From positions 1-64,000 of the forward strand of contig JAVJVN010000014.1 in the NCBI GenBank assembly GCA_040221055.1: a stretch of 64,000 bases of DNA, written 5' to 3'. The position numbers and the translations under genes were made by a program. This document shows, piece by piece, positions 13,526 through 56,102 of the stretch. Within the stretch, counting starts at the first letter, position 1. Each line of letters starts with the position of its first letter. Source of the DNA: Rhodothermales bacterium (lineage in GTDB: Bacteria; Bacteroidota; Rhodothermia; Rhodothermales; UBA10348). Under the pieces are notes generated by a model, which ran no database searches, was not told where the DNA came from, and was given only the letters and a program-made list of their open reading frames with translations.

Positions 13526-13894
<369 letters not shown>

Positions 13895-13960: not shown

Positions 13961-13987
13961 TAAATGTAACCTGCCAGGTTACATTTA
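13961..13987. repeat. 25-bp palindrome, copy 2, overlapping the ruvB stop
   Basis: The arms AAATGTAACCTG and their complement flank a single C (13962-13986), and one further T/A pair extends the palindrome to 27 bp. The right end forms part of the ruvB TAA stop codon. It matches the copy at 1876-1900 except for the central base. It may be a terminator hairpin for the two facing transcripts or a dispersed repeat. Confidence 0.6.
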
Positions 13988-15016
13988 TCCTGAAAACAAC
14001 CCACCCTCATCCGCCGGCGGCCGCGTCAGCCCGAAGTGCTTGTACGCCATCGGTGTGGCGGTGCGGCCGCGGGGGGTGCGTTCAATGTAGCCTTCCTGGA
14101 TGAGGTAGGGTTCGTAGACTTCTTCGATGGTGCCGGCGTCTTCGCCGACGGAAGCGGACAAGTTGTTCAACCCGGTCGGGCCGCCGCGGAATTTCTCAAT
14201 GAGCGTCAACAGGATCCGGGCGTCCATGTCGTCCAGGCCTTCACGGTCCACGTTCAGGGCGTTCAGGGCGTGGTCGGCCACGTCACGCGTAATACGGCCG
14301 TCGCCCTCGACGTCGGCGAAATCCCGGGTGCGGCGCAGCAGCCGGTTGGCAATCCGCGGCGTGCCGCGGGAGCGCCGCGCAATTTCAATGGCGCCTTCGT
14401 CCGAGATGGGCTGCTTCAGGATACCGGCCGAGCGGCGCACGATGTCGGTCAGCACATCCGATGTGTAGTAGTCGTACCGGAAATCAATGCCGAAGCGGGC
14501 GCGCAGCGGCGAGGTCAACAAGCCCTTCCGCGTGGTGGCCCCCACGAGCGTGAAGGGCGGCAGCGTGATCTTGACGCTGCGCGCGCTGGGTCCCGAGTCA
14601 ATCAGGATATCGATGTGGTAGTCCTCCATGGCGGCATAGAGGTACTCTTCCACCACGGGCGAGAGCCGGTGGATTTCATCGATGAACAGCACGTCGCCTT
14701 CGTTCAAGTTGGTCAGCAGCCCCGCAATGCTGGCCGGCTTGTCGAGCACGGGACCCGAGGTGGTCTTGACCTGGGCGCCCATTTCCGAGGCAATAATGTA
14801 GGCGAGGGTGGTCTTGCCGAGCCCCGGCGGACCGGACAGCAATACGTGATCCAGGCATTCGCCCCGGCGGCGGGCGGCCGTCATGAAAATCCGCAGGTTG
14901 TCCTTTATTTGCTGCTGGCCGATGAAATCGTCCAGGGTTTTGGGTCGGAGCGCCTTTTCGACGTCCTCTTCAACCGGAATGGCATGCGGAGTGGTAGCGC
15001 CGGATCGTTCGATCAT
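13985..15016 (-). CDS. ruvB: Holliday junction branch-migration ATPase RuvB
   Basis: The 343-residue protein is RuvB, the hexameric AAA+ motor that drives branch migration with RuvA. It has the N-terminal [18 protein letters not shown], Walker [16 protein letters not shown] (about residues 61-75), Walker [11 protein letters not shown], the sensor region [12 protein letters not shown] with its arginine finger, and a C-terminal winged helix ([17 protein letters not shown]). Length is normal. The gene reads alone on this strand; ruvA and ruvC are not in the window. The stop codon is part of a 25-bp palindrome found twice here. Confidence 0.97.
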
Positions 15017-38462: not shown

Positions 38463-39149
38463 ATGCCCGAGTCCCAGGAACACATCGACGAGTACCTGCT
38501 CGCCGCCTTTTTGGCCGGTGACCTGCCCCAGCGGCTCAGGGAAGAAATATCCGCCTATCTGGTGACCAACGACCGGGCACGCGACCTGCTGGCCATGGCC
38601 GGGGATGCGCTGTACGCTGCGGACGGGGGGGACGGAGCCCGGTCTGCCCCGGCCCGGAAATTACGACCGGCCCGCCTGGATATTTCCGGAATGATGACGG
38701 CAGAATCGGCATCCCGGCGCTTTGCGAAGTCCGATGAAAGTCTCTGGAAGACCATCATAGTCGTGGCGAGCACCGTGTTGTTGTTGACGGTTGCTGTCGC
38801 CTGGCACATCTCAATTGATTTTCGGGGCATGGGTGGTGCGGTCCTGGACACGGAGTGGGTCCCCAGCCTGGCAGAAAACCGGTTCGTACTCGCATGGGAA
38901 GAAGTGGACGGAGCCCGATCGTACCGCATCATCCTGCACGACGACGTGCAGGACATGCCGCATGCGGTCGGACTTACGATCGCGACCACATTCGATGCGT
39001 CCCTTTCTGAAGCCTGGCCGGGGAGAGCAGCCGGGGCAGAGGCTGGGCACGTCGGGAACGCTGGAACCCATACGTTGTGGATTGAAGCGCTCGATCCGGA
39101 TGGCAACGTCCTGCGACGCTCCGCCGCCATCCCGGTCAGCCATCCGTAG
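38463..39149 (+). CDS. Single-pass membrane protein, anti-sigma-like layout
   Basis: The 228-residue protein has a soluble N-terminal part (MPESQEHIDEYLLAAFLAGD...) resembling the start of anti-sigma factors but without a zinc-binding HxxxCxxC. One membrane helix follows (about residues 98-118, TIIVVASTVLLLTVAVAW). The outer domain contains a fibronectin-like pattern (FVLAWEEVDGARSYRIILHD and HTLWIEALDPDGNVL). The role is unknown and no sigma factor gene is adjacent. It is divergent from the aldehyde dehydrogenase gene. Its 3' end overlaps the end of the facing lipoprotein gene by 14 bases. The longer frame to 38238 lies inside the dehydrogenase gene. Confidence 0.65.
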   Translation: MPESQEHIDEYLLAAFLAGDLPQRLREEISAYLVTNDRARDLLAMAGDALYAADGGDGARSAPARKLRPARLDISGMMTAESASRRFAKSDESLWKTIIVVASTVLLLTVAVAWHISIDFRGMGGAVLDTEWVPSLAENRFVLAWEEVDGARSYRIILHDDVQDMPHAVGLTIATTFDASLSEAWPGRAAGAEAGHVGNAGTHTLWIEALDPDGNVLRRSAAIPVSHP

Positions 39150-41004
39150 CATCGATGCCGATCCGGCCCGTGTGCCGCGCGTTGCGTTGGAACGTAGGCC
39201 ATTTTTCCCGTGCCAGTCCGACCGATCCGGTTTCGAACGAGAACAGGGCACCGTTGTCGCCGGCTACCAGCAGTTCACCGCTCCGTGTAATGGTCAATGG
39301 ACCGTCGGACTGTGTATTCAGGTGGTAGGTCCAGTACGGCGTATTGTTCGGGTTGATGGCATACAGGGTCTTGGCGCCGACGAAGTAGACAATCCCGTTT
39401 GAATCGATGGTCGGGGTGCCCACGTTCTCGGCCACGAACACCCAACGCAGGCGCGGTGTGAAGGCGTCGGCGTCTTCATTGAGCGCGATCAAACCGGTGC
39501 TCGTGCCTACGTAGATGGTGCCGTCGGGACCGACCACGGGTCCGGAACGCAGCGGCCCGGTCAAGGGGTAGCTCCACAGGACGGAGCCGTCCTCGCCGGC
39601 TACGGCGTACAACTGTCCATCGTTGGAAACGGCATAGACAATGTTGGCCGTCGTGGTCCGGGTGTCGCCGGTCGGGAGATTGATGGTGATGTCCTTTTCG
39701 ATCAGGGCCATACCCACCATGACGGACCCGATGTTCTGCTGGGTCTTCCAGAGCAATTGTCCGGCCGGATCGAGGGCGTACAGGAAGCCGTCCGTGGAGG
39801 CCACGATGATGGTCCGGTCCCGGGCAATCACCGGCGGTACCACAATGGCGGCATCGGATACCTTCTTGGGCCAGCGTCCACCGATCGACAGGCCGTCGAA
39901 CGAGCTGACGGCATGGACGCGTCCATCACTGTCTCCGAAGTAGATGACCCCGTCCACGCCGAGCGTCGGACTGGAACGGAGCAGGGAGCCGGAATTGTAC
40001 GCGGTGGACCATCCCCAGAGGCGTTCGCCCTGGTTGGTCAGGCCATACAGGCGCCCGTCCTCGCTGACGACGAAGATGTCTTCATTGTTGCCCACCATGG
40101 GGGATGACCGGATGGGACCCTTGGTTGGGAATTTCCACTTGAGTGCGCCATCGACGGTGAAACTGTACAGGGTGTCCGAGGACGTTCCTACATAAATGTC
40201 GTTGTTGAAGCCGATGCCCGGGGCACCGTCGATCTCACCATTGAATCCGAAGGCACGCCACTTCAGGCTGCCCGGACGCAACTCGCCTCCGGTTTCGAGT
40301 TCGGTCTTCTCGACCGTGACCGATTCCGAAATCCGGAACACATTGATACCGGAGTAGGCCTTGACCTCGAGGACGTGTTTGCCGAGCGGAAGCTCAATGG
40401 TATCCCAGTCGAAGATGAACGTATTCCCACCAATGGACTCCGAGATGGATGCCATGGCGACGCCGTTCACCAGCAGGTCGACCCGCGTGACGAAAGGCTC
40501 TCCGGGGTCGGTCCGGGCCACGACCCGCGTGATGCCGTTGACTTCCTGGTCGGTTTCAGGGTCCACGATGGTCATCCGGGGTCCCGGACCGTCACTCTGG
40601 TTCTGGACCGTCACCAGGACCGGCGCACTGATGCCACGGGCCTGGAACTTGTCGAAAGCCACGGCTTCAATCCGGTAGAGCCCATCGGGGTAATCCAGTG
40701 AATTGAAACGAAAATTGAACAGGGCCCCATCGAATACGGCCTCGCCCGCGCGCTGACCATTGATGTTGATATTGATGAAGGAGACGAAGTTGTCGTCCCC
40801 GAGCGCCTCGGCGCTGATCTGGACGAGCACATTCCGGCCCGATACGGTAGCCTCATCGAAGGGGCGCAGGATTTCCAGGCGGGGAGCACGCTCGTCGATG
40901 GCCGTCCCGAATATGTCGCAGCCGGAGCCGAGGACAGCAATGGCCATCAAAACGGCGACCAGGGCGCGTCGCTCATTCGTCAGGATGTGGGATAGGGAGG
41001 TCAT
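39136..41004 (-). CDS. Ig-like plus PQQ-type beta-propeller lipoprotein
   Basis: The 622-residue protein has a lipoprotein signal (lipobox VLGSGC, Cys about residue 29). Residues about 40-240 form two Ig-like repeats (LEILRPFDEATVSGRNV and MTIVDPETDQEVNGITRV). The rest is a PQQ-binding-like eight-bladed propeller with repeats such as YVGTSSDTLYSFTVDGALKW, FVVSEDGRLYGLTNQGERLW and YAVAGEDGSVLWSYPLTG. The PQQ ligands themselves are not evident, so it may be a structural or BamB-like envelope protein rather than a dehydrogenase. It is divergent from the exopolysaccharide operon. Confidence 0.85.
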   Translation of the reverse strand: MTSLSHILTNERRALVAVLMAIAVLGSGCDIFGTAIDERAPRLEILRPFDEATVSGRNVLVQISAEALGDDNFVSFINININGQRAGEAVFDGALFNFRFNSLDYPDGLYRIEAVAFDKFQARGISAPVLVTVQNQSDGPGPRMTIVDPETDQEVNGITRVVARTDPGEPFVTRVDLLVNGVAMASISESIGGNTFIFDWDTIELPLGKHVLEVKAYSGINVFRISESVTVEKTELETGGELRPGSLKWRAFGFNGEIDGAPGIGFNNDIYVGTSSDTLYSFTVDGALKWKFPTKGPIRSSPMVGNNEDIFVVSEDGRLYGLTNQGERLWGWSTAYNSGSLLRSSPTLGVDGVIYFGDSDGRVHAVSSFDGLSIGGRWPKKVSDAAIVVPPVIARDRTIIVASTDGFLYALDPAGQLLWKTQQNIGSVMVGMALIEKDITINLPTGDTRTTTANIVYAVSNDGQLYAVAGEDGSVLWSYPLTGPLRSGPVVGPDGTIYVGTSTGLIALNEDADAFTPRLRWVFVAENVGTPTIDSNGIVYFVGAKTLYAINPNNTPYWTYHLNTQSDGPLTITRSGELLVAGDNGALFSFETGSVGLAREKWPTFQRNARHTGRIGIDATDG

Positions 41005-41334: not shown

Positions 41335-42792
41335 ATGAACGCAACATCAAACGTATCGACCGTGAGCTTCGCGCCCAAACATCTGTCTGGCATCGACGTC
41401 GTCGATGGTGCCTGGGGCGGACTGTATCGCGGCGGTTCGTACCTCGTGTACGGGCGGGCCGCAAGCGGTCGTGGATTGCTCACACTGACGTTCGCCCACA
41501 CTGGAGCCCAGCTCGGTGAGCCTGTACTCTTTGTCTCTCCGGACCGCCACAAGGATCTCATGATCCAGGCCGCGTCCATCGGGTTCAATCTCCGCGAGTC
41601 CTATGAGACCGGCATTGTCCGACTCATGCGGGTGCCTCCGCTCATGAATCTGCAGAACATGGGCGACGACGGTGTGGCCGGTGCCCTCTGGGATCTGGTC
41701 AATCTCATCCGCCAGCATCGGCCAACACGACTCATCATGAACGACTTCATGCCGTTCGTGGCGTTTCGGTCATTCGACCGGTTCAGGAATGAGTTCATCC
41801 AGTTCCTCGAGCAGATCGATTCGCTGGAGACCACAATGATGTTGGTCATGCCCGAGCCGGCCAATCAACAGTCCAAGCGGGTTATTGAATTCATGGCCAG
41901 TCAGATGACGGGTTCCATGCACATTGAACTGGCGGATGACAATCCGACCACCACCAAGCGGCGTATTACCCTCATTCCGCACATCGGGCACATCAAGCGT
42001 CAGGTTGTGGATTACTGGGACCTGGAAGATCTCATCCAGGCGGCCAATCAGGCCCAGCCCGCGACACAGGCTCCGGCCCCGGTCGCACCCCGGCCCGAGG
42101 ATGCCCTCCCGGCTTGGAGCGATGAGTCCTCGGCCGACCTTTCGCATACTCCCGATTCATGGACACCGAATCCGTCGGCACCCTCGACGCTTCCGGGGAC
42201 CACGCCGACAACCGTTCCGTCCCCGTTCGCGCCGCCCCCGTCCCCGTTCGCGCCTCCTTCGCAGTCGGCCCCCATGCCGCCGGCCCAGGTGCAGCCGCCC
42301 GTGCAGCAGGCTCCGCCCGTCCAGGTGCAGCCGCCCGTGCAGCAGGCTCCGCCACCCGCGGTTCCGGACGCGGAGACCGAACACACCTATTCCGACCGCA
42401 GCGCGTTCACACAGCGCCTGCAAGGCTATTTCGCGGCCCGCTCCACCGGTGCCGATCCGTTCCTTCTCCTCGCACTCCGCATGGATCGACCCGAGAAGAA
42501 GGCGGCCCGTCCCTTTGACTTCGATTTCCTGATGGACCTGGTCCGTGAGGAATTGCGACGGGGCGACGACATGCTGGTCGACGCCGAATCGGAGCGCCTC
42601 ATCATCCTGCTGGGCAACAGCCGGTCCGAGCAGGCCCAGCGCTTCTTCGCCCGATTGAAGGACCGACTGCGCAAGGAGTCGCCCGTCCAGGCCGACCACC
42701 TGCTGCACGCCGTCAGTGCCATCGTGGTACCGGACGGTACGCCGTTCGACACGGCCGAGGAATTTCTCAATTACGCACTCGACGAGGCGTAG
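41335..42792 (+). CDS. KaiC-like pseudo-ATPase with degenerate GGDEF domain
   Basis: The protein of 485 residues has a KaiC/RecA-like N-terminal domain (about residues 10-235). Its P-loop is GRAASGRG, lacking the canonical Gly and Lys, and the Walker B strand is PTRLIMNDFM, so ATP hydrolysis is unlikely. A Pro/Gln-rich linker (about residues 240-345) follows. The C-terminal 140 residues have the GGDEF fold pattern, but the GGDEF motif is AESER (catalytically dead). Five residues before it stands RRGD, an RxxD inhibitory site at standard spacing, so it may bind cyclic di-GMP. It is the first gene of the exopolysaccharide operon, seven bases before the TPR-barrel gene. The role as a regulator is inference. 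Confidence 0.7.
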   Translation: MNATSNVSTVSFAPKHLSGIDVVDGAWGGLYRGGSYLVYGRAASGRGLLTLTFAHTGAQLGEPVLFVSPDRHKDLMIQAASIGFNLRESYETGIVRLMRVPPLMNLQNMGDDGVAGALWDLVNLIRQHRPTRLIMNDFMPFVAFRSFDRFRNEFIQFLEQIDSLETTMMLVMPEPANQQSKRVIEFMASQMTGSMHIELADDNPTTTKRRITLIPHIGHIKRQVVDYWDLEDLIQAANQAQPATQAPAPVAPRPEDALPAWSDESSADLSHTPDSWTPNPSAPSTLPGTTPTTVPSPFAPPPSPFAPPSQSAPMPPAQVQPPVQQAPPVQVQPPVQQAPPPAVPDAETEHTYSDRSAFTQRLQGYFAARSTGADPFLLLALRMDRPEKKAARPFDFDFLMDLVREELRRGDDMLVDAESERLIILLGNSRSEQAQRFFARLKDRLRKESPVQADHLLHAVSAIVVPDGTPFDTAEEFLNYALDEA

Positions 42793-42799
42793 CCTGCCC

Positions 42800-45700
42800 A
42801 TGAACCGCATTTTCCGCATAACCATCCTGGGATTCTTCCTGTTGCTCGTGGCGCTTCCGTCACAGGCGCAGGATCTGGTCATGCAGGAACGGGCGTCAGC
42901 GCTCATTGAGGAGAGCCGGTACAGCGAGGCCATCGTCCTGCTGAATTCGGTCATCACGCCGACCACCCGCGATGCCCGGCTGTATCTGCTCCGGGCAGAA
43001 GCCCATGAAGGTCGCGGCGATCTGGCCAGTGCGTCCCGCGATTTTGAAAAGGCACTTGAGCTGAATCCGGGTTCCGTTGAGGCCCGTGACGGATTCCGAC
43101 GCGTACAGCAACGCCAGAGCGGATCGGCCGAATCCGGGAATTCCAGCCTGGAGAGCCTCCGGCGCCTGGTTGAGCTGAATCCGGACAACCTGTCGTATCG
43201 CATCCGCCTGGCGGATGCCTTGTTCGAGTCGCGCCGTTTCCGGGAAGCCGCCACGCAGTATGGCGAATACCTGGATCGTACGCAGGGTACGCCGGATATC
43301 GTCCAGAGCTACCTGATCGCGATCGCCGGTTATGAAGGCGACAATGATCTCGGCGAGCGCGTGGCCGAGAAGTACACGAAGATGTACAGCAACAACGACG
43401 ATCTCTGGATGCGTCTGGGCTACTTTCGCCTGTGGCAGTCCAAGAACAAGTTGGCGCAGGATGCCTGCGATCAGGCACTGAAATTGAACCCGAACAACCG
43501 GGAAGCCAAGGAGTGTCTGGGCAATGCCCAGGATCCCGGTCTGGCATCGGGTGCGCAGTCCCAGTATCCGATCGATGTGCTGTTCCGCGAACTGCAGGCC
43601 GACCCGGGCAACGACAGCAAGCGATTCCAGCTCGTGGACCTCCTGGTCGACGCCGGCCGCTACTTCGAAGCCCGTCAGCAGTTGGACCGGCTTGCCAATC
43701 CGCATCGGTCGACCGACATGTGGCAGGAGCGCTCGCGCCTGGTAGAGAACCGGATGCAGACGGAGCCTGCTCGTCAGGGACCGTCCACCTTCATCGTGGA
43801 TGTGTTGCAGCGTCGGTTGGAGCGCAACCCCGACAACGACGAAGACCGATTCCAGCTGGCCGAAGCATTCATCAAGTACAATCGGTACTTCGAGGCCTAC
43901 GACCAATTGGTCATACTGGAACCCCGACATGGCCAAGACCAGCGCTGGCTGGCCCTGTTCATGCAGGCGGACCAGGGTCTCCTGGACGTGAACGGCAATT
44001 CCCCGATCTATCCGATTGACCGGTATACCTATCGTTTGCGGTTCAACCCGACCGACATGCAGCTGCGCTACAACCTGGTGGATGAACTGGTTGCGGCCGA
44101 GCGGTTTGCGGAGGCGTACGATGTCCTGATCGATCCGCGCTATTCCAATCCGGCCGATCCGGGTTATCAGGGCCGGTTCGCGTCCATTGAGCGGACGCGT
44201 CAGGCCATTGCCCGGCAGAAGATCCAGGAACTCGAGGCCGTATTGGCCCAGGACCCCCGGAACGAAGCGGCCCTCCGGGAGATCATCCCCAATTACAATA
44301 TCGTGGGTCGTGCGGACGATGCCATTCGTACCTACGTACGCCTCATTGAACTGCGACCGGAAGACCGCCAGATCCGGATTGATTACGTGAATGCGCTCAG
44401 GCTCAGCGGATACGCCGAGCAAGCCGTCGTGCAATCCCGCTGGCTGGCCGACCGGGATCCGCAGAATCCGGAAATCCAGCGCCTGTACGTCATGTCCCAG
44501 ATCGGGGCCGGACAATTGGATGCCCGCGGGGAGTCCTTCCTTGTGGCGCTCCTGGCGCTGCACGGAAATGATCCCGAGCTGCTTTTCGAGGCGGCATCGT
44601 ACCGATTGGCCACGGGGAACGTGGCCGCCGCCACGGAAATGACCGACCGGCTGGAAGCCCTCAATGAGCAGTCCTATGCCCAGCGCGTCGATACCCTGCG
44701 GCTGCTTATTTCGCGTGAGGAAATGCGTGCCGAAGAGCAGCAGCGCGTGGCCATCCTGAACGAAGCACGCCGTCAGGTGACCGCCCGGCAATTCCAGGCA
44801 GCCATTGCGAGCTACGAGCGCTACTTCGAGGCCGCGGGCCGCCGGACACGGGCGGAGCTCAAGGAATTTGCCCAGGTTCAGGCCGCAGCCAACAACTTTG
44901 ACGAGTCGATCTCCATCTTCAAGGCCTTGCTGTCCGAGTCGTGGGATTTCCCGACGGCCAAGGAACTGGCACGGACCCAGCTGACACGGGAAGACTACTC
45001 GGGTGCCCTGGGCACGCTGGAGCGGCTCCAGGCCGAAAACCCCCGCGACTACGAAGTCCGTTTCATGCAGGCCGAGGCACTTCGTCAGCTGGGCATGTAC
45101 GAGCAGGCACAGGCCATCTATGACGAAGCCCGGGGACTGGCGCAGGACTCCGAGTACGTGAATGAGCGGGTGGTCAGCATTGACGGCGACATCCGGGCAG
45201 CCATTGCCCAGAGTGGGGAGTGGACCGGATACGATTTTGCCGGTGTCATCGTGCCCACGTCAAGCGCCACGCGTTCGCGGGGTGGTGGCACGCGATACGA
45301 CCGCTGGGCCCAGGGCATGCAGACCCAGGTCACCCTGCCCATCAACACGGTGCTTACGGCCGGCGTCAATTCCCACTTCATCAGCGGCACGCGTCGCCTG
45401 GTCCCGAATTCTGAAGTGGTCCGTGGGCGCGTGAACCAGATTTTCATGGGAGGCTACATCGATCTGACGCCCCCTTTCCTGTCCAAGCGGGCCTCCTATT
45501 CCAACCGGATTTCCACGGAGTTCGGTCTGTACGACTACGAGGGCGCCCGGACGGTGGTGTACGGCGGCATCCGGTACTGGCGCCAGGAACTGGGCAGTTA
45601 CGAAGCGTCCGTCGGGCTTCGAACGGGTGAAGGTACCATCGATCTCTGGTCGCCCGGTGGCGCCCAGTTCAATCTTCGCCTGACGCAGTTCGACGTGAAG

Positions 45701-46207
45701 GGTTCGTCCGTGACCGTCATGCCCGATTCCGTCCTTCGCCTGACGGGGTCCATGGCACTGAACGTGGTCAGGGACAACTTCGGCAACACGTCCAGCAACA
45801 GCGATACGAACTTCGGATCGGTCATCCAGCTGGAGGCCGGCTACAAGATCATCGACTACACCTTCCTGGGCATTACGTACTACAACCAGCAGTACCGCTC
45901 CACGGTCGATACGTACTTCTCTCCCCGCAACTACCAGGTCTACGACTTCTTCCTCGAGTACGAGAAGGAGATGCCGTTGACGTGGTACATCCGGGTTCGT
46001 GGCGCCATGGGCATGATCGCCCAGAGCAGCGGGTTCATTTCCCGCCGATTCGAGGTGGACTACATCAAACGCCTGGGACGGAATTTTTCCGTGACGCTGA
46101 GCTCATCGCTCGGAGCATCCACGCGTACGCTGGGATCGGGTTCGACCGCGTTCTTCGACAAATACAACACGTTCACGTTCTCCGGAGCGTTGTACTGGAC
46201 GCTGTAG
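42800..46207 (+). CDS. TPR and outer-membrane beta-barrel exporter (PgaA/BcsC-like)
   Basis: The protein of 1135 residues has a signal peptide (cleavage near PSQAQDL), then about 750 residues of tetratricopeptide repeats (SRDFEKALELNPGSVEAR, QDACDQALKLNPNNREAKEC, YLEYGK-like helices), then an outer-membrane barrel of about 300-330 residues with alternating aromatic strands ending in FTFSGALYWTL. This is the architecture of PgaA, BcsC and PelB: periplasmic TPRs guide a polymer into a porin. It lies seven bases after the pseudo-ATPase gene and three bases before the glycosyltransferase gene. The frame opens at 42716, but 42800 provides the signal peptide. Confidence 0.88.
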   Translation: MNRIFRITILGFFLLLVALPSQAQDLVMQERASALIEESRYSEAIVLLNSVITPTTRDARLYLLRAEAHEGRGDLASASRDFEKALELNPGSVEARDGFRRVQQRQSGSAESGNSSLESLRRLVELNPDNLSYRIRLADALFESRRFREAATQYGEYLDRTQGTPDIVQSYLIAIAGYEGDNDLGERVAEKYTKMYSNNDDLWMRLGYFRLWQSKNKLAQDACDQALKLNPNNREAKECLGNAQDPGLASGAQSQYPIDVLFRELQADPGNDSKRFQLVDLLVDAGRYFEARQQLDRLANPHRSTDMWQERSRLVENRMQTEPARQGPSTFIVDVLQRRLERNPDNDEDRFQLAEAFIKYNRYFEAYDQLVILEPRHGQDQRWLALFMQADQGLLDVNGNSPIYPIDRYTYRLRFNPTDMQLRYNLVDELVAAERFAEAYDVLIDPRYSNPADPGYQGRFASIERTRQAIARQKIQELEAVLAQDPRNEAALREIIPNYNIVGRADDAIRTYVRLIELRPEDRQIRIDYVNALRLSGYAEQAVVQSRWLADRDPQNPEIQRLYVMSQIGAGQLDARGESFLVALLALHGNDPELLFEAASYRLATGNVAAATEMTDRLEALNEQSYAQRVDTLRLLISREEMRAEEQQRVAILNEARRQVTARQFQAAIASYERYFEAAGRRTRAELKEFAQVQAAANNFDESISIFKALLSESWDFPTAKELARTQLTREDYSGALGTLERLQAENPRDYEVRFMQAEALRQLGMYEQAQAIYDEARGLAQDSEYVNERVVSIDGDIRAAIAQSGEWTGYDFAGVIVPTSSATRSRGGGTRYDRWAQGMQTQVTLPINTVLTAGVNSHFISGTRRLVPNSEVVRGRVNQIFMGGYIDLTPPFLSKRASYSNRISTEFGLYDYEGARTVVYGGIRYWRQELGSYEASVGLRTGEGTIDLWSPGGAQFNLRLTQFDVKGSSVTVMPDSVLRLTGSMALNVVRDNFGNTSSNSDTNFGSVIQLEAGYKIIDYTFLGITYYNQQYRSTVDTYFSPRNYQVYDFFLEYEKEMPLTWYIRVRGAMGMIAQSSGFISRRFEVDYIKRLGRNFSVTLSSSLGASTRTLGSGSTAFFDKYNTFTFSGALYWTL

Positions 46208-46210
46208 CCC

Positions 46211-47701
46211 ATGCCTGAAACCAACGATATCCAGCAGCAGACCGGGACGGAATTGTCCCCATCGGGCATCCCGGTGGTCCGGCAGTCCTTCATGCCCGTG
46301 CGCCGCAAGGAGGATGACCTCCCCACCGCCGCGGAAACGGAGGAGTCACTGTTCCGACGGGTCTTCCTGTACGGCTTCCTGTCCCTGGCCCTGTTCATCC
46401 TGATCTACGTCTTTCTGTACGATCCGGGCGGGTACCTCTTCCGGTTTACGGGGTGGAGTTCGAACCTGCGGGGCAGCGGGCTCATTGTGTATTCCTCCAT
46501 CGTGGCCCTGGTCCTCTTCCTGGTCATCCTGCTGTTCCGGTACCTGTCGCTCATGAACATGGCGTACCTGAATACGGTGCGTCATACCGTGAGGACGGGC
46601 CACGATGAGACGTTCCTGCCGGGTATTTCCATCATCGTGCCGGCCTACAACGAAGGCAAGCTCCTTCAGAGCACCATCAAGTCACTGGTGTACATGGAGT
46701 ACCCCAAGTTCGAGATCATCATCGTGGATGATGGTTCGACGGACGATACCCGGCAGGTGGCCCGCGGCCTTGTGGGCCATTACCGTGACGGTGCCGTGGA
46801 AGTCCGCCTGGTCGAAAAGTCCAACGGCGGCAAGTCCACCGCGTTGAACGCCGGAATCCAGGTTTCCCGCTATGACTTCCTGCTGAATGTGGACGGGGAC
46901 TCGCAGCTGTCACCCGATACATTGCGCAAGGCCATCCGCCATTTCGTGGATCCCCGTCTGGGCGCCATTGCGGGCAACGTGAAGGTGCTCAACCGGAACA
47001 ACATCTGGACGACCCTGCAAGCGCTGGAGTATGTGGAAGGCCTGAACATGGCCCGGTCCGCGCAGTCCGTGGTCAAGCTTGTGAACATCATTCCGGGACC
47101 GCTCGGGCTGTTCCGCAAGCAGGCCATCCTGGATGCCGGCTGGTACAGCTCCGATACGTTTGCAGAAGACGCCGACATCACACTCAAAATCCTGCGCGCC
47201 GGCTGGCGCGTGGAGTATGAGCCGGATGCCAAATCCTATACGGAAGCACCGGACCGGATTGTGGATCTCCTGAAGCAACGCTACCGCTGGACGCGGGGCA
47301 TCCTCCAGGCCGTTCGCAAGCACCGGGACTTGTTCTTCAACCCGACCATCAATTTCGGGGGGACCATCGTGATGTGGTCCATGGCGTTCGAGTCGCTGAT
47401 CTGGCCCATCATGAACGTGTTCGCGAACGCCTACTTCATTTTCATCGCGCTTGTGTTCAACATGAGCTACTACCTGGTCTATTGGTGGCTCTCCCTGACC
47501 ATCCTGGATCTCATTGCCGCTCTGTATTGTATTGCGGTGGAGAAGGAGGAAATCCGTCTGGTCTTCTACTCGCTGTTCTACCGGCTCTTCTTCATCCTCA
47601 TCATCGATGTCTGCAAGACCTTTGCAACCATCGAGGAATTCCTGGGCTTCGGAATGAACTGGGGCAAGCTGGAACGGATTGGCACGGGCGCCCGCAAGTA
47701 G
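46211..47701 (+). CDS. Membrane glycosyltransferase family 2 (PgaC/BcsA-like synthase)
   Basis: The 496-residue processive GT2 synthase has two N-terminal membrane helices (about residues 50-70 and 93-115). The catalytic domain contains IVDDGSTDDT, the DxD in NVDGDSQLS, the catalytic Asp in FAEDADITLK and the acceptor motif QRYRWTRG (about residue 355). Three or more C-terminal helices follow. It has no PilZ domain. The motif set suits a beta-linked polymer such as poly-N-acetylglucosamine or cellulose; the sugar cannot be told from sequence. It lies three bases after the TPR-barrel gene and would polymerise and extrude the chain through the inner membrane. Confidence 0.92.
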   Translation: MPETNDIQQQTGTELSPSGIPVVRQSFMPVRRKEDDLPTAAETEESLFRRVFLYGFLSLALFILIYVFLYDPGGYLFRFTGWSSNLRGSGLIVYSSIVALVLFLVILLFRYLSLMNMAYLNTVRHTVRTGHDETFLPGISIIVPAYNEGKLLQSTIKSLVYMEYPKFEIIIVDDGSTDDTRQVARGLVGHYRDGAVEVRLVEKSNGGKSTALNAGIQVSRYDFLLNVDGDSQLSPDTLRKAIRHFVDPRLGAIAGNVKVLNRNNIWTTLQALEYVEGLNMARSAQSVVKLVNIIPGPLGLFRKQAILDAGWYSSDTFAEDADITLKILRAGWRVEYEPDAKSYTEAPDRIVDLLKQRYRWTRGILQAVRKHRDLFFNPTINFGGTIVMWSMAFESLIWPIMNVFANAYFIFIALVFNMSYYLVYWWLSLTILDLIAALYCIAVEKEEIRLVFYSLFYRLFFILIIDVCKTFATIEEFLGFGMNWGKLERIGTGARK

Positions 47702-47809
47702 GCCCTGTCGGGACGCCAGCGTGCGTCTCATTTTGATCGATTCGCACGGAACTGATACGGATTCCAATGAAAAGCGATCATTTCAGGCTCTCAGACCACA
47801 TTACGCAAA

Positions 47810-47828
47810 TTGGGCACACTGTTTGTTG
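47810..47828 (+). promoter_or_regulatory. Candidate sigma-54-like site before the small membrane gene
   Basis: In the 172-base gap after the glycosyltransferase gene, GGGCAC-N5-TTGT resembles a -24/-12 element with two deviations (GGGCAC for TGGCAC, GT for GC). It is about 46 bases before the ATG at 47874. It shares the same type of -12 deviation with the candidate at 41256, which argues either for a local variant or for chance. Confidence 0.2.
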
Positions 47829-47873
47829 TACCCTGTTTGACATTCCCTGAACGCTCACGACGAGACTCGACCC

Positions 47874-48356
47874 ATGGAACTCGTTCCCATTCTTTCGACC
47901 ATCATTCTTGTAGGCACCATCGCCACGTTCATCCTGGCCGTGGCGGCTTACGTGCTCTACAAGATCCGCGAACGCCGCGCCCACGAGGAAGGCGGTCTGC
48001 AGGTCCAACCTGCCCAGGAGCCCCACGTCCTGGTCGCACCACAGCAGCCGCAAATGATTCAGCAGCCGCAATACCAGCAGCCGCAGTATCAGCAGCAGCC
48101 GCAGACCAACGTCTACGTAGGCAGCCAGCAGGAACAGGCCGGCGCGACGCGCTCCGCTGTTCCGTCCGGCTCCTCGCCATCCCAGACGCCGCAGGCCCGT
48201 CCGCCCCAGGTGGCCCAGCCTTCGCAGCAGAACTCCTTGTTCTGGGAATACACCGACGAAGGTTTCGTACCCGTCCGTCCTGACGACGTGCAGGAACGGG
48301 AAGAAGACACGCGTCGCGGAAGTGAATCCAGCGACGAAGGCTACGCCTGGTTGTAA
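47874..48356 (+). CDS. Small Pro/Gln-rich single-pass membrane protein
   Basis: The 160-residue protein has one N-terminal membrane helix (about residues 5-28, LSTIILVGTIATFILAVAAYVLY), a basic stop-transfer end (KIRERR), then a Pro/Gln-rich low-complexity stretch with short repeats (QPQYQQPQYQQQPQ, about residues 58-77) and an acidic C-terminus with WEYTDEGFVPVRPDD. No family is recognised. The gene lies two bases before the first deacetylase-like gene, so it belongs to the exopolysaccharide operon and could be a scaffold in the inner membrane, as small accessory subunits are in other synthase-dependent systems. Confidence 0.65.
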   Translation: MELVPILSTIILVGTIATFILAVAAYVLYKIRERRAHEEGGLQVQPAQEPHVLVAPQQPQMIQQPQYQQPQYQQQPQTNVYVGSQQEQAGATRSAVPSGSSPSQTPQARPPQVAQPSQQNSLFWEYTDEGFVPVRPDDVQEREEDTRRGSESSDEGYAWL

Positions 48357-48358
48357 TC

Positions 48359-50683
48359 ATGCGCACCCTCCAACTCGAAAGGATCAGCACCATTTGGTTC
48401 CTGACGCTCGGCGTGACTTCGCTGGCGGCAGGAATCCTGGTGTACATCCTGCTTTTGGAGAGTGCCTTGGGTGCGTTCAGTATCCGTGAGGCCTCTCCGA
48501 CGCAGATCGGCGTCGATACGCGCCCCCGGATTGCCCTTCTGAACAGTGAATACACGAAGGAAGCCCACAAAATCCTGAACCTCCGCGATACGAGCACGGC
48601 GTGGGTCGACCAGACGCTCATTTCCTGGCGGGAGTTCTTCATCAACCAGAAGCCGCTCATTCCCTTCACGGACATCAGTGATGATGACCTGGAATACGGC
48701 GATCTCTCGGAATATCAGGTACTCGTGCTGCCGTCCGTCCGGGCCATGAGCGACCTGCAGATCCAGCGTGTCCAGGAATTCATGCAGAACGGAGGCAGCG
48801 TGATGGCCACATGGACGCCGGGAATCTATCGTCCCGACGGGTCGTGGCGCGGCTGGAGCTTCATGGAAGAGACCTTCGGGGTCGAGTTCGAGGACTTCGT
48901 GGAGCGCGGGCAGGGAAACTTCCGCGTCTATGCCGACACGTTCCCCGGCCAGATGCTCGACGGCATCTATCTGCCACGATACCTGACGGAATCGGATCGA
49001 TTCATTCCACCATCCACCGGTGATGAAGGCCATGAGGCATTCCGGGCGAATCAACAGCGCCGTGCATCCGAAATGGACTTCCCTCCGCTCCAGGACTACG
49101 TCTGGTTCGATACGCTGAACTCCGCCCAGCCAACGGTCGACTGGGCACGTGCCCGCCAGATCCGTGCAGAAATTCGCGACCTGGATGGTTCGCTCCGTGA
49201 GCAGGATGCCGTGGTGGTGTCCTATTTCACCTGGACCGGCCGGGACCTTGGCGACGACATTCCATTCCCCCGTACGAGTGGCGGTATTCGTCGTCTCACG
49301 CTGCGAGCGGGTACCCCCATCTCTGCCGACATTCCGCCGGGGTATCGCGTCAAGATCCAGGTCTACAATCCGGGCGTGAAAGTCCGCGTGGTGGACGAGG
49401 ACCGGGCAAAGGCGGCCGCGTTCTGGTTCGACTTCGCTACCGAGGACCTGGTCAGCCAGGACCAGTTGACCGAGTCCTCCGGCATTGTCTATGGCAATTA
49501 CGGAGCGGGTCGCTTCGTCTACATGGGATTCCAGCGCAACGCCATGGGCGTCGGACCGGACGACGCCGAGGACTGGGAAATCCTGCAATACTATTTCCGG
49601 AACACCATGAACTACCTGCGTCGTCTGCCGACGATATGGGTACACGACTGGCCGTACAACTACACGGCGGCTGCCATGGTGACCGGAGCGGCAGAGTCGT
49701 CGGAGGGCATTGGTCGCTTCGCGTCGTTTGCCGACATGTTGGACAGGCAGGATGTGCCGGGAACATGGCTCGTCAAGCCTGAACAGGCCGCTCCGCACAC
49801 GTCTCTTCTGCGCCGCCTGCACCGGACCGGGGACGTGGCGGTGTACGATACGCTTCGCGTGGAGGCAGATGGTTTGCCCGAGAATCAGGCGGTCCGGCTG
49901 CAACGGATGCGGGACATGCTGGAATCCATCGTGGATGGACGCGTACAAGGGTACCGTTCCACCGAGCGCGGCATACTGGGTCGGAATACGATGGGTGGAC
50001 TCACGCGTGCCGGCTACACCTATTTCATGCCGGATTCCATCGGTCGCCGGATTGCCCCGAAAATCATGGGCTTCCCCTACGAAACGCTCACTCGGATTGG
50101 CACGACCATCAAGGGCGAACAGGACGTGTTGCGCGACCTGGACGAGAGCGGACGCGATTTGCTCACCGGCCTCATGCTGGAGGATGTGAACCGCATCCAG
50201 TATGAAGGCGGACTGTACAATCTCGTTTACAATCCCGAAACCATCGGGTCGGGGACACTGAACACACTCGTCTCCACACTGAAGGACGGCGATTTCTGGA
50301 TTGCGCCCGGTGACTCCATTGCCCTGTGGTGGCGTTTGAAGAAGGGTCTGAATGCCGACGTGGAGCAACGCAGCCCGTCCCGTATTTTCGTGCGCGTCTC
50401 GAATGATAACGGACATACGGCCAAGGAAGCCACGGTATCCATTTCATTGGGCCGTTCGGTCACGGCCGTGAACGTGCGTCCGGAGCTCATCAATATTTTC
50501 CGGCCCGTTCCGGACGAAGTGGACATCCCTCCGTATCGCCTGCGTGAAAACGGCACCATCCTGGAGTTGTCCATCCGCGAATTGAAGCCACAGCAGTACC
50601 GGATTTTCCACGTCGATCTCCTGGACGAGCGGTTTGCCCTCCATGATCAGAACAGGAACAGTGACGAAGGGGGAGGCGAATGA
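48359..50683 (+). CDS. Membrane-anchored amidotransferase-fold/pseudo-deacetylase protein A
   Basis: The 774-residue protein has one N-terminal membrane helix (about residues 12-35) and a large exported part. Residues about 55-190 look like a class I amidotransferase/beta-galactosidase trimerisation-type fold (RIALLNSEYTKEA, YQVLVLPSVRAMSDLQIQRVQEF). A region near 435-620 resembles a CE4 polysaccharide deacetylase (AAAMVTGAAESSEGIGRF, QDVPGTWLVKPE), but the metal Asp and the HxxxH are missing. A beta-rich C-terminus follows. It overlaps the next gene by four bases, and the two proteins look like divergent paralogues. It may bind or shape the polymer rather than deacetylate it. The domain calls come from pattern reading only. 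Confidence 0.65.
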   Translation: MRTLQLERISTIWFLTLGVTSLAAGILVYILLLESALGAFSIREASPTQIGVDTRPRIALLNSEYTKEAHKILNLRDTSTAWVDQTLISWREFFINQKPLIPFTDISDDDLEYGDLSEYQVLVLPSVRAMSDLQIQRVQEFMQNGGSVMATWTPGIYRPDGSWRGWSFMEETFGVEFEDFVERGQGNFRVYADTFPGQMLDGIYLPRYLTESDRFIPPSTGDEGHEAFRANQQRRASEMDFPPLQDYVWFDTLNSAQPTVDWARARQIRAEIRDLDGSLREQDAVVVSYFTWTGRDLGDDIPFPRTSGGIRRLTLRAGTPISADIPPGYRVKIQVYNPGVKVRVVDEDRAKAAAFWFDFATEDLVSQDQLTESSGIVYGNYGAGRFVYMGFQRNAMGVGPDDAEDWEILQYYFRNTMNYLRRLPTIWVHDWPYNYTAAAMVTGAAESSEGIGRFASFADMLDRQDVPGTWLVKPEQAAPHTSLLRRLHRTGDVAVYDTLRVEADGLPENQAVRLQRMRDMLESIVDGRVQGYRSTERGILGRNTMGGLTRAGYTYFMPDSIGRRIAPKIMGFPYETLTRIGTTIKGEQDVLRDLDESGRDLLTGLMLEDVNRIQYEGGLYNLVYNPETIGSGTLNTLVSTLKDGDFWIAPGDSIALWWRLKKGLNADVEQRSPSRIFVRVSNDNGHTAKEATVSISLGRSVTAVNVRPELINIFRPVPDEVDIPPYRLRENGTILELSIRELKPQQYRIFHVDLLDERFALHDQNRNSDEGGGE

Positions 50684-52620
50684 GGCTCCGGCTTCTTCCA
50701 TATCCATCCCGTCAGGCCGGGCTCTGCGCCACATTGGTGCTCACGCTGTGCGCGTTGTACCTCTTGCCGTCTACCGCGCTCTCCCAGCCTGTACAGAAAT
50801 TCGTGACGCTGCAGGCCCCCGCGCGCACCGTTGCAACGGATCTGTCGGACCTGCTGGCCGACCAGAAGCCGCGCGTGGCCCTCTATACGGCGACGCACAC
50901 CCGGACCTATGTCGGAGGAAATGCCCGACTGGTCGACGATGCGGTCTATTTCTGGGAATTGTTGCTGCTGGGTCTGCGACTTCCTTACGACTCGATTGAC
51001 GACCGGGACATCGACCGGCGCATTGACAAGGATTATGAAATCCTGATCATGCCCGTTGCCGAGGCGCTCTCGGACCGGCAGAAGCGCCGACTGCGCGAAT
51101 ATGTCCGGGATGGCGGAAATATCATTGCTTCCGGCCGATTCGGAATGTTCGATGAACAGGGCAACCGGACCGATGGCGGGTTCTTCCGGGACATGGTGGG
51201 CGCGGAGTTCGTTGAGAACGTGCCCGGCCAGCCCTACGGATACCTCCAGACATTGACCGGGAAAGGCCCCGTGTCGGCCGGCGTGGACCCTGGATACCAG
51301 TTGAATATTGCGGCCCAGCAGCCCCTGGCGGCTGCCCGTCCGGTCGAAGGAATGGGTCTGGGGCGCGTGGTCACCTATGCTCCTTCCGATCAGGCGGCCT
51401 TCGATTCGCTCACGACGGCCGTATACAACCACTCCGACGACGGTCACGTGTTGTGGACCCGGTTTCATGCCCACGAGGTGTCCAGGGCGGACATGCAACA
51501 GTACATGTGGCAGCGGCTCGTGGTGAATTCCTTTGTGGACATGACAGGAGGAGTCAGCGTGTCGGTGGCCCCGTGGCCGAACGCCCATCCCATGGCGCTC
51601 AGTGTCGCCGTGCTTCCGACAGTCGGGTATGACCCGCTGGCGTTCTCGGGAGGCGTGACCCAACTGCTGGATATCCTGGCCACGGCACGCGTTCCCGGCA
51701 GTTTCTATCTGACATCCACGGAACTGTCGTCCCTGAATGACCTGCGCAACCGTCTGATTACGGCCGGTGAAGTCGGTGTGACCGCTGAAAGTGATCGGGT
51801 GCTGAAGGGGCAACCCATGGAAGTGCAACGCGACCGGATCATGAAGGCGAAGCGTGACCTCGGCATTGAAACCCTGCACGGCATCTATCCCCCCGGTGGA
51901 TTTTTCGACGGAAACACCATCCGCGTGATGGACGACCTGGCCGTCGACTATCTGGTATTGCCGGGTCTGGACTCCTGGGCACCCGGGGAGCTCAACTGGT
52001 GGAACCATGTGGACTACCGGGAGCGCCTGAACCAGGACGAAGTGATCGAAGAAACGCCGCAGGTCGAACTGTTCGTGCCGGGCGGAAGTACGGCCAGTCA
52101 GCAACCCCAGCCAACCGGCCCTCCTCCGAAAACGTTGCCGGATCCCGTAGCGACGGTCTCCATCATTGAAGGCATTGCTCCGACATTCGAGGCATCGTAC
52201 CGCCTGGTCCGGGACGTGAACGGCCACTACGTACTGCCCTATTACCCGGAAACCTACTCGGCCCGGACGACATCGGCCGCCGACCTGGAACGGACGCTGG
52301 CCCTGGCCCGCTCGGAACGGGCATGGATTGCCACCGTGAGCGACGCGCTCATCTGGTGGCGTCAGCGTCAGAGCATCCGGCCGCTCATCGTGTCGCTGGG
52401 TCGGCAGGAAATGCACATTGACGTCAACAACGACAGTGAATCGATTGTGGACGGTGCCGTACTGGAGATCAAGATGGGCGACCAGCGCTTCCGCAACATG
52501 CGGGTGGCCGGTGGCGAAGGGGAAGTCCGGTATGAGGAGGAGTCCGGTGTGGCCTATGTCCACTTGCCGACCCTCGACCTGGGGCCCCGCCGCGTGGTCC
52601 TCACATGGGACCGGCGTTGA
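50680..52620 (+). CDS. Secreted amidotransferase-fold/pseudo-deacetylase protein B
   Basis: The 646-residue protein has a signal peptide (cleavage near STALSQPV). Its layout repeats that of the preceding protein: an amidotransferase-like segment (about residues 65-215, ILIMPVAEALSDRQKRRLREYV, GGNIIASGRFG), a CE4-like segment (about 300-480, MALSVAVLPTVGYDP, RVPGSFYLTSTE and a motif-3-like IYPPGGFFDG) and a beta-sandwich C-terminus ending RRVVLTWDRR. The Asp of motif 1 and the histidines of motif 2 are absent. A strong GGGGAGG Shine-Dalgarno precedes the ATG, unusual for this window. It is the last gene of the exopolysaccharide operon. Confidence 0.68.
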   Translation: MRLRLLPYPSRQAGLCATLVLTLCALYLLPSTALSQPVQKFVTLQAPARTVATDLSDLLADQKPRVALYTATHTRTYVGGNARLVDDAVYFWELLLLGLRLPYDSIDDRDIDRRIDKDYEILIMPVAEALSDRQKRRLREYVRDGGNIIASGRFGMFDEQGNRTDGGFFRDMVGAEFVENVPGQPYGYLQTLTGKGPVSAGVDPGYQLNIAAQQPLAAARPVEGMGLGRVVTYAPSDQAAFDSLTTAVYNHSDDGHVLWTRFHAHEVSRADMQQYMWQRLVVNSFVDMTGGVSVSVAPWPNAHPMALSVAVLPTVGYDPLAFSGGVTQLLDILATARVPGSFYLTSTELSSLNDLRNRLITAGEVGVTAESDRVLKGQPMEVQRDRIMKAKRDLGIETLHGIYPPGGFFDGNTIRVMDDLAVDYLVLPGLDSWAPGELNWWNHVDYRERLNQDEVIEETPQVELFVPGGSTASQQPQPTGPPPKTLPDPVATVSIIEGIAPTFEASYRLVRDVNGHYVLPYYPETYSARTTSAADLERTLALARSERAWIATVSDALIWWRQRQSIRPLIVSLGRQEMHIDVNNDSESIVDGAVLEIKMGDQRFRNMRVAGGEGEVRYEEESGVAYVHLPTLDLGPRRVVLTWDRR

Positions 52621-52644: not shown

Positions 52645-53400
52645 CTAGCGAAACGGGCGCTCCTTGCTGAGCATGCCCATGAGGTCATGCGTTCCCATGG
52701 GCCCGTGCCGGTAGATGAACGGCTCGCCATAGGTGGCTCCGATCCGGTACCCCGCCACGCGCATGCGCGCTTCTATCCACTGCATGAAGGCCGGATTCGA
52801 GATGAAAGTCTCGGGTTCGTCCGGCGCCGCGACGTAATCGGGCGAGTGGAACTGCGACGTGTAGGCTCTCAGCGCCTGCATGCGGCGCTCCCAGACATCC
52901 GATACGTCGACCACGAGCGTCGGCTCGAGCTCGATGGACTGGATGTAATGCAGGACGTGATGCGGCCGCCAGGCTTCCTGGAGAACGCCGTTTTCGTCCT
53001 TTGTTTCAATTTTCGTCAGACCCGACTGGAAGACGGCGTCCCCGACCAGTCGGGCGGCGGCCGGATGGTCCGGGTGCCGGCAGTCCGGCGCATTGATGAG
53101 CAGGATATGGGGCCGCAACGCCCGCAGGGTCCGGATGACTTTCAGGCGGTTCTCGTGCGTGTCGGCAATATCACCATCGGGGATGTCCAGGTTCAGGCGC
53201 GTTCGGACCCCGAGGATACGGGCGGCCTCGGCGGCCTCGGCCGCCCGACCGCTGACCGTGCCGCGCGAGCCCAGTTCGCCGCGCGTCAGGTCCACAATAC
53301 CCACCGAATGCCCCTGGTCGACCAGGCTGCAGATGGTTCCGCCGGCGAACAGTTCCACGTCGTCGGGGTGGGCTCCGAAGGCGACTACATCACAGGTCAT
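52645..53400 (-). CDS. bshB1: Bacillithiol biosynthesis deacetylase BshB1
   Basis: The 251-residue LmbE/PIG-L-fold zinc deacetylase removes acetyl from GlcNAc-malate in bacillithiol synthesis. The zinc motif is AFGAHPDDVELFAGG (about residues 8-22), with DLTRGELGSRGT and the later ligand DCRHPDHPAAARL. PDYVAAPDEPETFISN and the C-terminal SKERPFR fit BshB1. It overlaps the leuS start side by four bases and faces the exopolysaccharide operon tail to tail across 24 bases. bshC is on the other side of leuS; bshA is not in the window. Confidence 0.9.
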   Translation of the reverse strand: MTCDVVAFGAHPDDVELFAGGTICSLVDQGHSVGIVDLTRGELGSRGTVSGRAAEAAEAARILGVRTRLNLDIPDGDIADTHENRLKVIRTLRALRPHILLINAPDCRHPDHPAAARLVGDAVFQSGLTKIETKDENGVLQEAWRPHHVLHYIQSIELEPTLVVDVSDVWERRMQALRAYTSQFHSPDYVAAPDEPETFISNPAFMQWIEARMRVAGYRIGATYGEPFIYRHGPMGTHDLMGMLSKERPFR

Positions 53401-56102
53401 GATACCACCAGGTTGACCAGACGGCCGGGAACGTAGATTTCGCGGCGCATCGTTTTGCCTTCCAGGTGCCGGGCCACATTCGGATCGAGCTTCGCGACAG
53501 AGAGGATGTCTTCTTGCGAGGCGTTCGCATCGACCGAAATAGTCGCCCGGAGCTTGCCGTTGACCTGGACGGCCAAGTCAATGGTGCTGTCCTTGAGCAG
53601 GGCCGGGTCGGCCACGGGCCAGGGTTTGTAGGCGAGCGTTTCCGCATGTCCCATCCGGCTCCAGAGTTCCTCTGCCATGTGGGGGGCAAGCGGCGCCAGC
53701 ATGAGCACGAATGAGCGGGCCACGTCGCGGGGAATCCGTTCCAGGGCAATGAGTTCGGACGTGAATTCAATGAGCGCGGCAATCGCCGTGTTGAAGCTCA
53801 TCCGTTCCATGTCGTGGGTGACCCGCTCGATGGTCTTGTGCAGGCTGCGGAGCAGGGCCTCCGGCGCCACCTCGTCAGTCACCAGGAGTTCGCCGCTGTC
53901 CTCGTCGACGAAATTGCGCCATACCCGGCGCAGGAAGCGGTTGACCCCCACGATGTCGCGGGTATTCCACGGTTTGGATGCGTCCAGCGGGCCCAGGTAC
54001 ATCTCGTACAGACGGAGCGTGTCGCATCCGTACTGCTCGTTGATTTCGTCCGGGCTTACGGCGTTTTTCAGGCTCTTGCCCATCTTGCCGTACTCCTGCG
54101 TGACGGGCTCCCCATCGTGGAAGAAGCGACGGCCGGGTTGATCCTGGACCTCGGTGGCCGGGCGGCCGTCCTGGTCCACCACTTCGGTGGCTTCCACGGC
54201 TATGCCCCGGGCATCGCGGTAGGCGTAGGCCTGGATATAGCCCTGGTTGTAGAGCCGTCCAAAGGGCTCCTTGGTACCTACATGGCCCAGGTCGAACAGC
54301 ACCTTGTGCCAGAACCGGGCATAGAGCAGGTGCAACACGGCATGCTCGACACCTCCGATGTACAGGTCCACGCCATTGTCGCCCATCCAATACCGTTCTT
54401 TCCCCGGCGCCACGAAGGCCTCGTCGTTGGTATTGTCCAGGAAGCGGAGGTAATACCAGCAGGAGCCGGCCCATTGCGGCATGGTGTTCAGCTCGCGCTC
54501 GTAGGTAACACCGTCCAGTTCCACCGTGCGCCAGGCTTCCGGTGCCCGACTCAGCGGCGGGCGGGGCGGGGCATCGGGGTCGGACGTGGCGGTGGGGCGG
54601 AAGTCGTCCATCGGGGGGAGTTCCACCGGCAAATGCTCCTCCGGAACGGCGCGAACCGTGCCGTCGGGGCCGTGCAGGATGGGAAACGGTTCGCCCCAGT
54701 ACCGCTGCCGGCTGAACAGCCAATCGCGCAATTTGTAGGTGACCGTCCCTTCGCCGTGGCCGTGTTCTTCGAGCCAGGCAATCATTTTCTTCTTGGCGGC
54801 CGCCATTTCCAGGCCGTCCAGGAAGCCGGAGTTGATGGCGGCTCCGTCCCCTGTCCATGCCTTGCCTTCGAAGTCGTCCGGTGGCTGAACGGTCCGCACG
54901 ATGGGGAGGTCAAACGTCTCGGCGAATGCCCAGTCCCTGTCGTCCTGAGCCGGAACGGCCATGATGGCTCCCGTCCCGTAGCCCATCAACACATAATCGG
55001 CCACCCAGATGGGAATCCGTTCTCCGTTGACAGGATTCACGGCAACGGCACCCGTGTCCACACCCGTCTTGGTCTTGCTGTCGGCCATCCGGTCGATGTC
55101 CGTCTTTGCTGCGGTGACGCTTCGGTAGGCGTCCACGGCCGACTGGTGGTCAGGCGTCGTAACACGGTCCACCAGCGGGTGCTCCGGCGCGAGGACCATG
55201 TACGTAGCTCCGAAAAGCGTGTCGGGCCGGGTGGTGAACACGCGGATGGTCTCGTCGTGTCCATGTACGCGGAAGTCCACGTGGGCGCCCTCGCTCCGGC
55301 CGACCCAGTTGCGCTGCATGAGCTTGACGGGCTCCGGCCAATCGACGTCATCCAGGTCGCGCACCAACCGGTCCCCGTACGCGGTAATCCGCAGCATCCA
55401 CTGCTTCAGGGGACGCTTGAACACCGGATAATTGCCCCGTTCGCTCCGGCCGTCGTTCGTCACCTCTTCGTTGGCCAGGACCGTCCCCAGCTGCGGGCAC
55501 CAGTTCACGGGTACCTCGGCGAGGTAGGCCAGGCGGTATTCAGCCAGGACGGCCTCCTTCTCCGCTGCCGTCTTGCCGTTCCATGCAGGATCCTGTGCGG
55601 CCAGCCGGTCTTCCAGTTCCGCAATCGGGCGCGCCCGTTCCTGCTCGGCATCGTACCAGGAGTGGTAGAGCTGCAGGAAGATCCACTGGGTCCAGCGATA
55701 ATAGTCCACATCCGTCGTGGCCAGTTTCCGATCCCAGTCATAACTCAGACCGATCGACTTCAGCTGCCGGAGCATGTTCTCGATGTTCGTCTCGGTCGTG
55801 ACCCGCGGATGCACGCCGTGCTCCACGGCATACTGCTCAGCGGGTAGGCCGAACGCATCGAAACCCATGGGGTGCAATACGTTGAAGCCACGCATCCGCT
55901 TGTACCGCGCCGTGATGTCGGTCGCAATGTACCCCAGGGGGTGACCCACGTGCAGTCCCACGCCACTGGGGTAGGGAAACATGTCGAGGACGTAGAACTT
56001 GGGGCGGGACGTGTCGGGCGACTCGGGAGTGCGGAAGGTCTTGCAGGACTCCCAGTGGTCCTGCCATTTCTGTTCTATCTGCCGGAAGGGGTAATCAGCC
56101 AT
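53397..56102 (-). CDS. leuS: Leucyl-tRNA synthetase
   Basis: The 901-residue class I synthetase has the HIGH-type motif SGVGLHVGHPLGY (about residue 43) and the KMSKS-type loop as KMGKSLKN (about residue 645), with the CP1 editing domain between (FTTRPDTLFGATYMVLAPEHPLV). The C-terminal anticodon-binding domain is complete. It lies between bshC (24 bases upstream) and bshB1 (4-base overlap) on one strand, so leuS is embedded in a bacillithiol gene pair. Confidence 0.97.
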   Translation of the reverse strand: MADYPFRQIEQKWQDHWESCKTFRTPESPDTSRPKFYVLDMFPYPSGVGLHVGHPLGYIATDITARYKRMRGFNVLHPMGFDAFGLPAEQYAVEHGVHPRVTTETNIENMLRQLKSIGLSYDWDRKLATTDVDYYRWTQWIFLQLYHSWYDAEQERARPIAELEDRLAAQDPAWNGKTAAEKEAVLAEYRLAYLAEVPVNWCPQLGTVLANEEVTNDGRSERGNYPVFKRPLKQWMLRITAYGDRLVRDLDDVDWPEPVKLMQRNWVGRSEGAHVDFRVHGHDETIRVFTTRPDTLFGATYMVLAPEHPLVDRVTTPDHQSAVDAYRSVTAAKTDIDRMADSKTKTGVDTGAVAVNPVNGERIPIWVADYVLMGYGTGAIMAVPAQDDRDWAFAETFDLPIVRTVQPPDDFEGKAWTGDGAAINSGFLDGLEMAAAKKKMIAWLEEHGHGEGTVTYKLRDWLFSRQRYWGEPFPILHGPDGTVRAVPEEHLPVELPPMDDFRPTATSDPDAPPRPPLSRAPEAWRTVELDGVTYERELNTMPQWAGSCWYYLRFLDNTNDEAFVAPGKERYWMGDNGVDLYIGGVEHAVLHLLYARFWHKVLFDLGHVGTKEPFGRLYNQGYIQAYAYRDARGIAVEATEVVDQDGRPATEVQDQPGRRFFHDGEPVTQEYGKMGKSLKNAVSPDEINEQYGCDTLRLYEMYLGPLDASKPWNTRDIVGVNRFLRRVWRNFVDEDSGELLVTDEVAPEALLRSLHKTIERVTHDMERMSFNTAIAALIEFTSELIALERIPRDVARSFVLMLAPLAPHMAEELWSRMGHAETLAYKPWPVADPALLKDSTIDLAVQVNGKLRATISVDANASQEDILSVAKLDPNVARHLEGKTMRREIYVPGRLVNLVVS

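Follow-up and report, generated by a model that had tools for sequence, protein, structure and literature searches.

The six genes described here probably encode a synthase-dependent machine for the assembly and export of an exopolysaccharide, with a control module that resembles BcsE and BcsF and would work without cyclic-di-GMP. We analyzed a stretch of 64,000 nucleotides from a Rhodothermales genome (the window), in which six plus-strand open reading frames, G1 to G6, fill positions 41335-52620 (Table 1). An earlier, sequence-only reading had described six plus-strand genes with small gaps or overlaps and one wide gap, and this layout was confirmed: the spacings from G1 to G6 are 7, 3, 172, and 2 bases, followed by a 4-base overlap between G5 and G6. 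Its domain calls also hold for all six proteins, with weak support for the barrel of G2: KaiC and GGDEF-like domains, TPR, GT2 motifs, a single-TM Pro/Gln protein, and two CE4-like proteins lacking HxxxH. From these it had proposed a polymer secretion system with a new list of parts; the locus and the difference of its parts from those of Pga, Bcs, and Pel stand, and a secreted polymer is what those parts suggest.

Table 1 Features of the six-gene operon and its flanks (window coordinates).
Feature	Position	Strand	Description
G1	41335-42792	+	KaiC-fold and degenerate GGDEF domains; proposed regulator or assembly protein
G2	42800-46207	+	Signal peptide, long TPR array, C-terminal putative outer-membrane barrel (~300 residues); proposed exporter
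G3	46211-47701	+	Predicted inner-membrane processive GT2 polysaccharide synthase, PgaC-like
G4	47874-48356	+	Single-pass membrane protein with Pro/Gln-rich tail
G5	48359-50683	+	TM anchor, GATase/GIFT/ThuA-like domain, CE4-fold barrel without metal ligands, beta domain
G6	50680-52620	+	Predicted secreted or periplasmic G5 paralogue; CE4-like pseudoenzyme
Flanking genes	39136-41004; 52645-53400	-	Bound the six-gene operon

The gene order is not unique to this genome. A gene-neighborhood survey found G1-G2-G3-G4-G5(-G6) widely conserved in Rhodothermales and Ignavibacteria, including the cultured Melioribacter roseus, and this recurrence excludes chance. Searching 60 relatives with G5 led to 24 genomes, and the regions fetched show the same order in many Rhodothermales loci. 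Searching with G1 revealed a second lineage, largely Ignavibacteria (including Melioribacteraceae and Ignavibacteriaceae), where the common order is GH9-G1-G2-G3-G4 and then one G5/G6-like gene; exactly these genes are present in 33 loci, and in the remaining Ignavibacteria-type loci parts are missing or interrupted by contig ends. Few Ignavibacteria show a separate G6; in many it is absent or has diverged strongly. Across loci, the median gap between G1 and G2 is 0 and the median overlap of G4 and G5 is 10 bases. Given that the G5 profile matches only 23 of 114 genomes in the host's order and, in the M. roseus class, 21 of 149, the operon is accessory. Its site appears stable, since the flanking genes hold their position in several relatives; these minus-strand neighbors are a PQQ-like repeat protein on one side (39136-41004) and a PIG-L-type deacetylase and LeuRS on the other (52645-56102). 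Rfam and promoter/terminator scans yielded nothing useful, and our literature searches found no experiment on any member of the operon. Three Ignavibacteria loci (L084, L087, and L091) carry an extra protein of 410-456 residues between G2 and G3; the one in L084, from M. roseus (13654-14889), has no Pfam match.

The synthase candidate, G3, carries the motifs DDGSTD, DGD, and QRYRW and matches PF13641 (E 8.6e-32), with no PilZ domain in a Pfam scan. Its nearest curated family is PgaC/IcaA, although its score against TIGR03937 is 196.5 bits, compared to a cut-off of 422.3. In a small GT2 tree built with E. coli PgaC, NfrB, BcsA, OpgH, ArnC, and WcaA and the GT2 proteins of this genome, the G3 family forms its own clade, whose adjacency to PgaC is weak (support 0.43). 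G3 is of the processive QxxRW type and lies apart from ArnC and WcaA, so that the grouping with protein or lipid glycosylation enzymes that the sequence-only reading had raised against itself is not seen. Its motifs and profile matches mark G3 as a processive GT2 synthase with a distant likeness to PgaC.

The AF2 model of G5 (pLDDT 81.1) contains a TM helix, a GATase-like domain, a CE4 barrel, and a C-terminal beta domain. It matches CE4 folds with a Z score of 24.8 and, through the GATase-like part, the GH42 trimerization domain with a Z score of 20.8; neither PelA nor Agd3 is among the matches listed for the fold. Members of the G5 family match IFT52_GIFT, ThuA, and Polysacc_deac_1. G6 is matched by the G5 profile at 4.7e-32 and by CE4 profiles as well. 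Both proteins lack the HxxxH box, the DD motif, and the metal triad of CE4 enzymes; on sequence grounds, they are CE4-like pseudoenzymes that would not deacetylate.

The sequence-only reading had described G2 as a TPR-plus-barrel exporter. The TPR array is borne out by Pfam matches to TPR families; the barrel match is marginal, in that the C-terminus matches BCSC_C, the C-terminal family of BcsC, in 3 of 21 members with a best E value of 7e-4. A profile of this region matched no solved structure. Its 300 residues are rich in G, S, T, N, and Y, resembling the barrels of E. coli exporters, and an outer-membrane barrel is likely. A TPR protein without a barrel, which the sequence-only reading had named as a finding that would speak against it, retains some probability. 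A beta-moment scan for the barrel was dropped: it missed the known barrels PgaA, BcsC, and NfrA as well.

These proteins could belong to a diverged Pga system, making poly-beta-1,6-GlcNAc, in which the deacetylase has decayed. Like PgaABCD, the operon combines a PgaC-type GT2, for which PgaC/IcaA is the closest family, with a TPR exporter and a CE4-fold periplasmic protein. We consider this unlikely, however, because G3 scores far under the PgaC cut-off and is placed near PgaC with so little support, and because the operon has no PgaD and neither the hydrolase domain nor the active deacetylase of PgaB. The association of GH9 with the Ignavibacteria loci also argues against it.

The candidate regulator, G1, is unusual, and the sequence-only reading had called it a new regulator; it combines a KaiC fold with a degenerate GGDEF domain and has no match to the BcsE family (PF10995). 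The KaiC domain matches PF06745 (55.5 bits, E 6.9e-15), and the GGDEF-like domain matches PF17853 below threshold. The AF2 model (pLDDT 81.9) matches KaiC with a Z score of 24.6 across 208 residues, and the matches listed for it by Foldseek/VIA were filled by KaiC. In this protein, predicted to be cytosolic, the KaiC fold spans residues ~10-235, with degenerate Walker A and B motifs, and the degenerate GGDEF domain, whose elements follow a GGDEF-like order, spans ~355-485; between them the model has a disordered Pro/Gln linker (~245-350) and no REC-like domain. Aligning G1 with E. coli BcsE by hhalign gave a probability of 0.4% over 14 columns. Given the lack of both a BcsE family match and a REC domain, we did not file G1 as BcsE.

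The likeness to BcsE nonetheless bears on how the system would be controlled. In BcsE, which the small membrane protein BcsF recruits, a KaiC-like domain with a degenerate Walker A motif accompanies a degenerate GGDEF domain that binds cyclic-di-GMP through RxxD (PMC7439463). G1 has an RxxD motif in I-site register, five residues ahead of the GGDEF position, which reads AESER. Our first idea, cyclic-di-GMP input through this site, was dropped, and an input of this kind as in Pga, Bcs, and Pel, the systems to which the sequence-only reading had compared the operon, is not supported: there is no GGDEF domain (PF00990) in this genome (G000) or in six relatives (G003, G011, G035, G033, G029, and G036), and no EAL domain in this genome or most relatives checked, making such an input unlikely here. 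One could keep the exopolysaccharide machine and still take G1 for a true cyclic-di-GMP receptor, with its ligand supplied by a cyclase that is non-canonical or escaped detection. The exact register of RxxD, its retention in 15 of 20 Rhodothermales G1 proteins (including the one in the window), and the binding of cyclic-di-GMP by BcsE at the same kind of site all speak for this version; the missing enzymes, and the presence of RxxD in 0 of 30 Ignavibacteria-type G1 proteins, make it quite unlikely. Those 30 proteins keep FDE, and most carry GxRKSGRT; GK[ST] is intact in 6.

G4 is a plausible membrane partner for G1. In an alignment of 31 members, the N-terminal TM segment is strongly conserved, as is the end of the tail (FxxYTxEGF...GFAWL); positive charges follow the TM segment and the tail is predicted to be cytosolic. 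At two loci, L123 (9827-11805) and L130 (9974-11973), G1 is directly followed by a G4 relative without polymer genes, recalling BcsE-BcsF and suggesting that the two may also have a separate function as a pair. L123 is from the complete genome of Roseithermus sacchariphilus, which has no G5; LeuRS is a neighbor of the pair there, as it is of the operon in the window. G1 also occurs without polymer genes at L081-L083, in L081 without a recognizable G4, so it may serve something else too. This evidence favors a partnership between G1 and G4, in which the two proteins may be in contact. More tentatively, and with less than even confidence, we propose that they make up a module controlling exopolysaccharide synthesis, with an origin independent of BcsE-BcsF. 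In it, G1 would be a pseudo-ATPase derived from KaiC, with a GGDEF domain that is dead, and would be tethered by G4 as a single-pass membrane adaptor, having kept an I-site motif in cells that lack cyclic-di-GMP signaling. In Ignavibacteria, where G1 still has Walker-like motifs, polymer export might on this view be coupled through the module to ATP or some other ligand. A search of the open-licence literature found no paper on KaiC and exopolysaccharide in Bacteroidetes, which is not proof of novelty.

No known system that we compared has this set of parts. In the E. coli type II Bcs system, too, a protein with a KaiC-like domain (degenerate Walker A) and a degenerate GGDEF domain stands next to a small membrane partner; that system also has counterparts to the putative BCSC_C-like exporter end and to the endoglucanase (here in Ignavibacteria only). 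In contrast to Bcs, the synthase here lacks PilZ, none of the six proteins matches the BcsB families, G1 has neither the BcsE family match nor the REC domain, and the endoglucanase is GH9 and not the E. coli BcsZ type. The Nfr system (E. coli NfrB-NfrA-YbcH; PMC8669469) likewise joins a GT2 synthase to a TPR/outer-membrane protein, the counterpart of the putative exporter G2, and to an anchored periplasmic protein, but NfrB has an MshEN cyclic-di-GMP domain and Nfr has no KaiC-like, G4-type, or CE4-like proteins. In PelA (PDB 9CGY), a ThuA/IFT52-like domain precedes a CE4/CE18-like domain (PMC12022489). G5 has a similar order of ThuA/IFT52-like alpha/beta, CE4/CE18-like, and beta domains, an architectural resemblance only, as no match to PelA itself was obtained by sequence or by fold; unlike Pel, the operon lacks the hydrolase domain and the catalytic residues, and PelF and PelG families are absent from the six proteins.

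In the exopolysaccharide machine that we favor, G3 would polymerize a nucleotide sugar and move the chain through the inner membrane; anchored G5 and soluble G6 may hold or guide it in the periplasm without deacetylation. The TPR arm of G2 would capture the chain for export through the outer-membrane barrel. G4 would connect the membrane complex to cytosolic G1, and G1 would regulate the complex or serve as a platform for its assembly, in the way of BcsE and BcsF in E. coli but without cyclic-di-GMP in this genome. That G3 might instead add sugar to a protein or lipid of the cell surface, while G2 served as a scaffold for assembly and not as a polymer exporter, is very unlikely: GT2 specificity is not readable from sequence and the barrel is not firm, yet the processive motif, the distance from ArnC/WcaA, the constant presence of the TPR protein and the CE4-like partners in one operon, and the GH9 neighbor speak against it.

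In most Ignavibacteria-type loci, G1 is preceded by a gene for an intact GH9 endoglucanase, which keeps DAGD in 46 of 49 (one DGGD counted) as well as NEP, and one of these proteins matches PDB endoglucanases. Because of this neighbor, our leading guess for the polymer in Ignavibacteria is a beta-1,4-glucan-like chain, which the envelope GH9 would trim. For the Rhodothermales genome studied here the guess is weaker and may not carry over, since GH9 was not found in it. In M. roseus P3M-2, whose cluster lies at about 2.63 Mb, the gene at 7422-8951 of L084 encodes a GH9 endoglucanase adjoining the operon; judging by its position, this is likely to be Mros2241, which the literature lists among candidate cellulose degraders (PMC3534657).

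If this reading is correct, Rhodothermales and Ignavibacteria, for which our literature searches found none described, would have a synthase-dependent matrix system, and the operon would show how such a system might be controlled in cells in which searches detect no enzymes of cyclic-di-GMP. It would also suggest that the GH9 enzyme of M. roseus serves the cell's own matrix.
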